Assembly (NCBI GenBank): GCA_900314865.1
Contig: OMWW01000001.1
Location: forward strand, 251,457 to 315,456
Direction of reading: 5' to 3'
DNA from: an uncultured Erysipelotrichaceae bacterium
GTDB taxonomy: Bacteria > Bacillota_I > Bacilli_A > RFN20 > CAG-826
DNA length: 64,000 bases
Positions 783 to 56,325 of this stretch are shown here, one piece after another. The translations under genes and the position numbers were made by a program. The stretch's first letter is position 1; each line of letters opens with the position of its first letter. A model generated the notes under the pieces. It saw only the letters and a program-made list of their open reading frames with translations. It did no database searches and had not been told where the DNA came from.

Positions 783-1857
783 AAAATTAGTCGTTCCATT
801 TCTAGCTACTATCATTGGCTTATCCGTTGCTGGTGGCTTAGGTGGAGCATTTGCGTGGTATCAATTCAATAGTGAAGTCAGAACAGGTTTCATTGGTAGT
901 TCAGTAGCAGATACTGGCCTCCTCCAAATGGGATATAATGATGGTTCATGGCATTGGGGAAGTAGCAGATACTTACCTAATTCCGATTTAAAACCAGTTA
1001 CCTTTGGTAAAATGGGCACAGGAAATGCTTTACCATATGACGCTGGTGGAGATCCATTATGTTATGGTTATCCAGAAGCTGGCGCACAAACCGGTGAAGA
1101 TTACACTAAAGGATGGAAAAGAATGGCCGTCGGTGATGGTTATTACCAATATGAGATTTATCTCAGAGCGATAAAAGCTAATTCTGCTGTTACTACAAGA
1201 GACGAAGCTAACGACATTAATGCAGGTTATGAACTTTCTGCACAAAACGTTTACATTTCTTCTGTCACTCTTGAAGACGCAAACAATAGTGGTAATAAAA
1301 CCGTTTCTGATGCATTAAGAGTCCACGTTGACGTTGATGGCGGTAAAAAATGGCTCATTTCTAAAAATGAACACAGCGTTACAAAAGCAACCGCTTTAGA
1401 TGTTCACGGCTATTTGGATCTTGATGGTGATGGTCACCCCGACAAATATGATGCCGATCCATGGAATACCACATTCTATAACCAAGATTGTAAATATGGT
1501 ATTTGGGGTGACAAACAAGAAACCACACAAGCTTATGATTATACCGATAACGAACATCCAGAAAATAATATTACCGGTATCGTTCAACCTCGTGACACTG
1601 ATGGTTTAATGCCTGCTTCAACAGATCCAGCATTAGATCCAGATGGTGCAAATCCAAAATGTATTTGTAAAACAAAATCTACAGGTAATATGGCTGACAT
1701 GGTCAAAGTTACCATTACAGTTTGGCTTGAAGGTTGGGAAGCTTTAAAAGTTGATAATACCACAAACAAGAGTGTTATCTGGAATCCTGCAATGAATGCT
1801 GGAGTCAACGTTAACGTTGGTTTAGTGTTCGATGTCGGTAGAAATATTCTTGGTTAA
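769..1857 (+). CDS. Exported surface protein 2, SipW-cognate signal peptide
   Basis: This is a 362-residue protein. Residues 5-31 form a signal sequence ending in the Gly-rich GGLGGAFAWY, typical of substrates of SipW-type signal peptidases (TasA, camelysin). After it comes FIGSSVA at 41-47, shared with the next gene (FIGTSVA), marking them as paralogs. D217, D219, D221 and D225 form a DxDxDGxxxD loop resembling a calcium-binding EF-hand/dockerin loop. Near the C terminus VWLEGWEAL precedes a final strand (GLVFDV). The start ATG lies inside the end of the preceding gene, with a GGAG about 15 bases upstream. The role is unknown; a matrix-fibre or surface-layer subunit is an inference from the signal type and the adjacent SipW gene. 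Confidence 0.72.
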   Translation: MKMNKKLVVPFLATIIGLSVAGGLGGAFAWYQFNSEVRTGFIGSSVADTGLLQMGYNDGSWHWGSSRYLPNSDLKPVTFGKMGTGNALPYDAGGDPLCYGYPEAGAQTGEDYTKGWKRMAVGDGYYQYEIYLRAIKANSAVTTRDEANDINAGYELSAQNVYISSVTLEDANNSGNKTVSDALRVHVDVDGGKKWLISKNEHSVTKATALDVHGYLDLDGDGHPDKYDADPWNTTFYNQDCKYGIWGDKQETTQAYDYTDNEHPENNITGIVQPRDTDGLMPASTDPALDPDGANPKCICKTKSTGNMADMVKVTITVWLEGWEALKVDNTTNKSVIWNPAMNAGVNVNVGLVFDVGRNILG

Positions 1858-55728: not shown

Positions 55729-55962
55729 ATGAATTTTGATAAATGGTTTGAGGAACAAGAAAGATTAGTTAAAATTATCTTTCTTTTCATTCCGATTGTA
55801 GGATGGGTTATTGAAGTCCTAGTTAGACTTAGTGCGATGATTAGAAATAGCAGCACGATGAACATCCTAGGATTTGTCATTTTTCTTATTGGCGGATACT
55901 TCTTCCAATTCGTTGATTTAATTTATCTTTGTATAACTGACGAACTCCTCATCATTGAATAA
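55729..55962 (+). CDS. Small membrane protein, unknown
   Basis: This 77-residue protein begins with a charged amphipathic helix (FDKWFEEQERLVK), then has two hydrophobic segments (about 15-33 and 44-70) separated by a short loop. There is a strong AAGGAG ribosome-binding site, a TATAAT upstream and a hairpin terminator directly after the stop, so it is a self-contained single gene. I recognise no family; the size and topology recall short accessory or stress membrane peptides, but nothing assigns a role. Confidence 0.7.
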   Translation: MNFDKWFEEQERLVKIIFLFIPIVGWVIEVLVRLSAMIRNSSTMNILGFVIFLIGGYFFQFVDLIYLCITDELLIIE

Positions 55963-55997: not shown

Positions 55998-56225
55998 TTA
56001 GGCGATAACGCGGTCAATTCTGAATCTGTTGTTATAATCACAAACATATTCAATATTGTGCTTATCATTATTTATGCAAAACTCGTCTTCAACTTGGATG
56101 TTTTTTAATTCGTGTCTATTGTAATAGGCGAAGATATAATCGAGCGCCGCATTTCTAGATTTGAACATGTGGTTGAATCGAACGGTTTTACCATCGATTA
56201 TCGCTGTAAGAATGTAGTTTTTCAT
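55998..56225 (-). CDS. Small soluble protein of unknown function
   Basis: This is a 75-residue protein starting MKNYILTAIIDGK from the ATG at 56225, which has a perfect AAGGAGG 7 bases upstream; a longer start at 56270 would ignore it and run through the leader hairpins. It contains strand-helix-strand-like segments (TVRFNHMFKSRNAALDYIFAYYNRH) and many Asn, Tyr and Asp residues. The family is unknown. Its short leader can fold so that the ribosome-binding site is paired, suggesting translation is controlled. It has its own promoter and lies downstream of the ribokinase terminator. Confidence 0.68.
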   Translation of the reverse strand: MKNYILTAIIDGKTVRFNHMFKSRNAALDYIFAYYNRHELKNIQVEDEFCINNDKHNIEYVCDYNNRFRIDRVIA

Positions 56226-56291
56226 TGATATACCTCCTTCTTTGCCTTTTATGGTCGTGCTTGGGACCAAGGAGGTCTTTTCTTAAAGCAA
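56226..56291 (-). promoter_or_regulatory. 5' leader with ribosome-binding site / anti-RBS pairing
   Basis: On the minus-strand RNA, ACCTCCTT (56276-56269) is perfectly complementary over 8 bases to the AAGGAGGT ribosome-binding region (56239-56232). Two alternative 4-base helices compete: GACC (56277-56274) with GGTC (56268-56265), and that GGTC with GACC (56256-56253). Such mutually exclusive pairings are typical of a translational switch. No known riboswitch class is recognised. Confidence 0.5.
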
Positions 56292-56297
56292 CACATA

Positions 56298-56325
56298 ATC
56301 ATAGTCCTATTTTTTACATAGTCAA
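56298..56325 (-). promoter_or_regulatory. Promoter of the 75-residue protein gene
   Basis: On the minus strand TTGACT (56325-56320) and TATGAT (56303-56298) are 16 bases apart. The predicted start is near 56291, giving a 66-base leader. Confidence 0.6.

Follow-up and report, generated by a model that had tools for sequence, protein, structure and literature searches.

The Locus and Its Leader

The window, a stretch of 64,000 nucleotides from an uncultured Erysipelotrichaceae bacterium, contains on its minus strand a gene coding for a 75-residue protein (positions 55998..56225), to which no function has been assigned and for which a b-b-a-b-b-b fold is predicted. Upstream of the gene, a promoter-like sequence, TTGACT-16-TATGAT, was found by pattern (56325-56298, minus strand), and the 5' end of the leader was placed by this match, which would give a leader of 66 nt (56226..56291, minus strand). 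On the 3' side of the gene, an intrinsic-terminator-like hairpin of 7 pairs was likewise identified by pattern (55986-55967, minus strand). The initial annotation had assigned the gene its own promoter and terminator, and both are supported by these matches; in addition, a string TTGACW...RGGACTANAAT, resembling the promoter of the window, was recognized by eye upstream of most homologues. On the plus strand, at 55729-55962, a 77-residue predicted membrane protein is encoded convergently with the 75-residue gene, and it was found nearby in five loci.

The AUG of the gene is located at 56225, and the Shine-Dalgarno sequence AAGGAGGU (56239-56232, minus strand) ends 6 nt upstream of it. As the initial annotation had stated, the leader contains an exact 8-base complement of this ribosome-binding site, ACCUCCUU (56276-56269, minus strand), and the two stretches form the 3' and the 5' arm of an outer helix. 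Nested within this helix, an inner motif reads GGUC-C-CAAGCA-C-GACC-AUAAAAGGC. Its parts, all on the minus strand, are the two strands of a stem 1, GGUC (56265..56268) and GACC (56253..56256), a conserved single C as loop 1 (56264), the loop CAAGCA with the conserved RGCA, which would be the 5' strand of a stem 2 (56258..56263), and AUAAAAGGC (56244..56252), which combines an A-rich loop 3 with the 3' strand of stem 2, pairing there being limited to GC/GC.

For the 75-residue protein, AlphaFold2 with 38 sequences gave the b-b-a-b-b-b model with a mean pLDDT of 90.7, and the structure model from the single sequence was poor. No family was accepted from Pfam, PHROG, or PADLOC, the PHROG matches being weak and scattered; one PADLOC model, which matched one of the 38 members with an E of 0.0044, was not trusted. 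Solved structures close to the predicted fold were absent at E<=0.001, and the protein matched no known nucleic-acid-binding family or fold. In BFVD, small uncharacterised phage proteins were found, with a best E of 0.0053 and a TM of at most 0.70 among the 50 matches listed. A phage-type fold can be considered a lead from these predicted structures; close relatives of the protein were not found in viral contigs.

The Outer Helix

In the minimum-energy fold of the leader, the 8-bp outer helix encloses the GGUC/GACC hairpin. For the 66 nt of the leader, a folding energy of -15.5 kcal/mol was obtained (z -2.24; 5 of 200 shuffles equally good), and when 21 coding nt were included it was -15.6 kcal/mol (z -1.44; 17 of 200 shuffles equally good). 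By itself, the folding energy of the window leader is just mildly unusual, so that it is the homologues which decide whether the structure is real.

A covariance model built on nine leaders was used for an alignment of 40 leaders with 34 distinct rows, from which L032, with a degenerate loop, and L046 were excluded. In this alignment, which was fitted to the structure and is thus biased in its favour, the whole structure was paired in 94.3% of the cells, compared to 81.3% in shuffles (0 of 500 as high) and 26-54% in slid controls. The structure surpassed all 500 shuffles in cells paired, in cells changed on both sides, and in covariation score. Across the 34 distinct leaders, the ten outer pairs were paired in 92.5% of the cells, and eight of them had changed on both sides. 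Compensatory changes are also plainly visible in the raw leaders, for example, GUUACGCCU/AGGCGUAAC versus GAAUACCUC/GAGGUAUUC. Compensatory changes in homologous leaders, which had been proposed as a check of the initial annotation, are therefore present. The covariance model R1 matched the window at 56230-56278 with an E of 1.5e-5.

Two shorter helices competing with the outer one had also been described. One of them, GACC-UCCUU-GGUC, indeed excludes the 8-bp helix, whereas the other, GGUC-CCAAGCAC-GACC, is nested within it and compatible with it, and conservation in the homologues is limited to the latter. With respect to the translational switch that had been suggested for this leader, a conserved structure hiding the ribosome-binding site is supported by the compensatory changes, while the switching itself is a step that we infer.

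The Gene Family and Its Leader Hairpin

Relatives of the 75-residue protein were identified in 15 of the 19 genomes of the genus, in 44 of 224 of the family, and in 46 of 279 of the order, and some genomes, including that of the window, contain a paralogue. Judging from pattern matches in named records, the gene family belongs to uncultured Bacilli and Erysipelotrichaceae, and animal guts are the source of several of these genomes. Gene neighbours are common only to small groups of genomes, and none is conserved across genera. Among 52 homologous genes, from which L051 and L053 were omitted for having no tblastn match, the leaders of 43 contain the inner GUCC...GAC hairpin and those of nine do not.

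A 20-letter pattern of the hairpin gave 42 exact matches in the 224 genomes of the family, 40 of which precede a gene of the 75-residue family, and its reversed form gave none in the same genomes. One pattern match, in G220:C55, appears to be antisense to a lipoprotein-like gene. With model R1, 53 matches were obtained in these genomes, 42 of them before a family gene; at E<=5e-4, this holds for 40 of 40, one lying at a contig end. From the 11 matches elsewhere, ten were judged by reading to be chance, and one (G155:C20, L084) is unexplained. In this locus (958-1007, minus strand), the hairpin is located before a 31-residue membrane ORF, so that this is the only clear intergenic case in the family in which the hairpin is not tied to the 75-residue gene. 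In the genome of the window itself, exact pattern matches are present only in the leaders of the two paralogues, and a search for a wider regulon there with up to three mismatches gave 25 matches versus 16 in the control.

In the divergent homologues L044 and L047-L050, TGNAANCGNTTNCA sites, which we take to be a cre-like motif, were seen upstream of the promoter. In this branch, the gene family may be under sugar control.

The Inner Pseudoknot

The consensus of the inner motif is C-GUC-C-YNRGCA-N-GAC-G-WWAAA, followed by CUGC or AGGC and free bases. With a 25-letter pattern of this motif, 91 matching stretches were identified in contigs of genomes and at least 120 in those of viruses; the latter figure is a lower bound, and the reversed pattern had no match in viral contigs. 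In the viral contigs, stem 1 occurs intact with different letters, as CGUC/GACG in at least 120 stretches, as CGAC/GUCG in at least 120, and as GGUC/GACC in 67. The broken combinations, which were counted as stretches and not as unique copies, were found in no stretch for CGAC/GACG and in four for GGUC/GACG.

Covariation was also seen between the loop and the tail of the viral copies. In the three stem-1 classes, the stem-2 pair R8-n1 is formed in 110 of 113, 47 of 48, and 78 of 81 unique copies, each time higher than the best of 1000 shuffles (94, 42, and 70, respectively). The next pair, N7-n2, exceeded the shuffles in one class (96 of 113; best shuffle 85) and not in the two others (44 of 48 and 60 of 81, with best shuffles of 44 and 60), and no signal was obtained for a third pair, Y6-n3. 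This pairing between loop and tail, together with the compensation in stem 1, therefore indicates that the inner motif is a compact H-type pseudoknot. In the 36 family leaders, the stem-2 pairs were present 36 times for G9-C, 27 times for C10-R, 26 times for R8-n1, and eight times for N7-n2. Because R8-n1 and N7-n2 pair weakly in the family and stem 2 of the window copy is limited to 2 bp (GC/GC), the pseudoknot of the family may have decayed towards a hairpin. Distant copies share the C of loop 1, the RGCA, and the AAA in loop 3, none of which is required for pairing; several of these bases are fixed by the search patterns.

Tandem pseudoknots, only a few bases apart and some differing in their stem-1 letters, were observed in L137, L187, L188, L304, and L265.

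The Pseudoknot in Phages and Other Genomes

Phages that carry the pseudoknot infect cyanobacteria, staphylococci, lactobacilli, and other hosts, and it is also found in Saccharibacteria contigs. The 75-residue family is present at 30 of the 91 pseudoknot loci in genomes and at none of the 310 viral loci. Saccharibacteria contigs (L126, L128, L161, L181, L202, and others) account for 13 of the 80 titled rows among the 91 genome matches, and some of them carry several copies.

For positional analyses, viral copies were made unique by their flanks and copies near the end of a piece were dropped, which left 205 for the ORF test and 197 for the distances to stop and start codons. ORFs of 100 codons or more contain only 35 of the 205 copies, compared to 3002 of 4100 random positions. 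Instead, 86 of 197 begin at most 12 nt past the stop codon of an ORF spanning 80 codons or more, a position found for 12 of 197 on the opposite strand, and 35 of 197 are located exactly 5 nt past the upstream stop codon (for example, L219, L252, and L281), none being nearer than 4 nt. A start codon follows within 40 nt for 82 of 197 copies, versus 30 on the opposite strand. This spacing could mean that the pseudoknot has to stay folded while the ribosome ends the preceding gene, packed phage genomes pushing the distance to its limit.

Among the genes downstream are those for scaffold proteins, a single-strand binding protein, GP88, DUF5895, and a uracil-DNA-glycosylase-like protein; a scaffold gene follows in Staphylococcus phage 80 and Lactobacillus phage phiEF-1.1. 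Synechococcus phage S-EIV1 contains seven copies on one strand of the map, in four stem-1 versions (CGUC, GGUC, UGUC, and AGUC), where shuffles gave a mean of 0.1-0.25 matches per strand and piece and the other strand gave two weak, chance-like descriptor matches. Six of the seven begin 48-56 nt upstream of an annotated start codon, and one precedes the gene of a ssDNA-binding protein.

Two further pairings were noticed by eye in these loci. At about 2487-2592 of L337 (Staphylococcus phage 80), two possible partners exist for the ribosome site of the scaffold gene, one in the stretch 5' of the pseudoknot and one in the 3' strand of the pseudoknot itself, and the two folds exclude each other. 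In L132, L149, L214, L292, L341, and other Firmicute phage loci, a U-rich stretch and an AUGC are found 3' of the pseudoknot, and this AUGC could alternatively pair with the GCAU of the loop.

Pairing of the leader with the ribosome site distinguishes the family from other carriers of the pseudoknot. In 24 family leaders, it scored 20.4, compared to 14.9 when the flanks were swapped (0 of 200 swaps as high), whereas 48 other pseudoknot loci with a ribosome-binding site had no excess (11.38 versus 11.54). Locking of the ribosome site as a general feature of the pseudoknot was rejected on these values. In the same 48 loci, the pseudoknot strand against the ribosome site gave 11.65 versus 11.28, with 13 of 200 swaps as high, which was not counted as a result. 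On the evidence of these comparisons, the lock is peculiar to the 75-residue family, and it would therefore have been added by the family around a general phage-type element.

Comparison to Known RNA Classes

No Rfam family, riboswitches included, reached threshold in the window, and in 16 pseudoknot loci the only one to do so was an unrelated FMN riboswitch. In translational riboswitches with a pseudoknot aptamer, for example, preQ1-I, a small pseudoknot is combined with control of the ribosome-binding site, and the window leader would have the same combination, without matching any of the riboswitches in Rfam. In riboswitch terms, the platform-like helix over the ribosome-binding site is supported and the aptamer part is putative.

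The nearest known class is the GP20-b RNA (RF03003), whose layout was compared through the printed consensus only: gGuCagcccgcaGgCgUAAAAgugcgg can be aligned with GCA-N-GNCG-UUAAAC-UGC in the same order of strands. GP20-b has a second hairpin, in place of which the window leader has the outer helix. The scaffold context of GP20-b recurs in Staphylococcus phage 80 and phiEF-1.1, but the context of the window gene is different. The sole sub-threshold match of GP20-b on the pseudoknot lies before the Phage_GP20 scaffold gene of Staphylococcus phage 80, and its 11.0 bits (E of 3.9) are far below the gathering score of 36.2. The window had no GP20-b match, none of 11 records was above the cut-off, and at none of the other loci tried did a match coincide with the pseudoknot. 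On this score, the pseudoknot was not assigned to GP20-b. On reading, the GP20-b matches from two bacterial genomes and from one virus record proved to be different from this pseudoknot.

The nearest worked-out phage pseudoknot upstream of a start codon is the operator of gene 32 in T4 and RB69, described as a pseudoknot of about 28 nt in the phage mRNA, followed by an unstructured stretch (PMC535899). The S-EIV1 copy mentioned above likewise precedes the gene of a ssDNA-binding protein. In contrast to that operator, the pseudoknot described here, with its conserved letters GUCC, RGCA, and UAAA, also precedes many other genes, and the likeness considered is one of layout.

In a list of 104 RNAs from 2010, the GUCCY-hairpin is given as a weak candidate (PMC2864571). 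Its name agrees with the GUCCY conserved in the hairpin, and to judge by this name it may be the same hairpin, which would then have been noticed before. In the same source, the STAXI motif (RF01728) is described as tandem pseudoknots near DNA-handling genes (PMC2864571). Membership in this class was rejected, as RF01728 had no match in nine records at E<=10. A description of the pseudoknot was not found in the open-licence literature, and the class seems not to be properly catalogued.

A Model for the Control of the 75-Residue Gene

The reading that we favour, with modest confidence, is a translational control element of two layers, consisting of a ribosome-site lock and a phage-type pseudoknot as its recognition part. 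It builds on the outer helix with its covariation, stem 1 with its compensation, the covariation of stem 2 in phages, and the tie of the combined element to the gene family, each read from the sequences. The outer helix would pair with the Shine-Dalgarno sequence and thereby keep translation low by default. The inner part would be a compact H-type pseudoknot of the class that phages of many host kinds place between their genes, and it would be bound by a partner present in many bacteria, which might be a protein, a ribosome component, or a metabolite. Binding of this partner would shift the balance of the outer helix, so that the ribosome-binding site is either closed or opened. The default-off state, the existence and identity of the partner, and the direction of the switch are what we infer here.

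Many leader-binding proteins repress their own synthesis by binding the leader of their mRNA. The 75-residue protein might act in the same way by binding its own leader and steadying the lock, which we regard as possible but not probable. Such autogenous repression would agree with the own promoter-like site and terminator of a gene without conserved neighbours across genera, and with a combined element that is found almost only before this family, paralogues within one genome included. Confinement of the RNA element to the gene of its regulator, as expected for autoregulation, was found for the pseudoknot together with the outer helix, but not for the pseudoknot alone, which is without the protein at 310 of 310 viral loci and accompanied by it at just 30 of the 91 loci in genomes. 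A pseudoknot found so often without the protein does not have it as its general partner, and the autoregulation considered in the initial annotation becomes less likely as far as it would act via the pseudoknot. The nine homologues without the hairpin and the lack of a match to any nucleic-acid-binding family or fold also speak against it. An action of the protein on the outer helix, which is confined to this family, is still conceivable.

Somewhat less probable, and in our view unlikely, is a static leader, in which the helix sets a weak level of translation and the pseudoknot is a stabiliser, protecting the 5' end of the mRNA or firming the fold, with no switching. The pseudoknot is very compact and close to the 5' end given by the promoter match, and the phage copies precede unrelated genes, as expected of a generic element. 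A mere stabiliser, however, would not account for the recurrence in distant copies of bases that are independent of pairing, with the reservation that several of them were fixed by the patterns.

An RNA thermometer usually consists of a helix over the ribosome-binding site which melts on warming, and the leader has such a helix. For simple melting, however, neither the outer helices of many relatives, which measure 8 to 14 bp, nor a conserved inner motif would be expected. The temperature response that had been suggested is thus hardly credible, since a plain thermometer leaves the conserved bases of loop and tail unexplained.

It is equally improbable that the phage pseudoknot serves to recode the gene before it, acting by stop-codon readthrough or frameshift and carried into the window leader by chance: the distances to upstream stop codons in the viral copies would fit, but recoding was rejected because TAA, TAG, and TGA are all used and no frame is open past the stop as a rule (median in-frame continuation 16.5 codons), and the copies of the window and the family follow a promoter-like site instead of a gene end.

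Returning to the two-layer element, its partner should exist in many bacteria or come with the phages. A bolder proposal, which we put forward only tentatively, is that the pseudoknots represent an uncatalogued class in phage mRNAs, placed between genes in phages whose hosts differ widely; that their partner is common to most bacteria, perhaps the ribosome itself on account of the favoured distance of 5 nt from upstream stop codons; and that the lock of the window gene might serve as a sensor of infection. A strongly compensated pseudoknot of about 30 nt, recurring in phages of such different hosts and in Saccharibacteria contigs, would point to a shared partner in the bacterial cell on which phages rely. 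With one small gene, one leader, and one lock, the family of the window would be a clean system for its study. If the bolder proposal is true, this bacterial gene contains a phage signal inside a ribosome-site lock, which could be switched when the level of a phage or of the shared partner changes.
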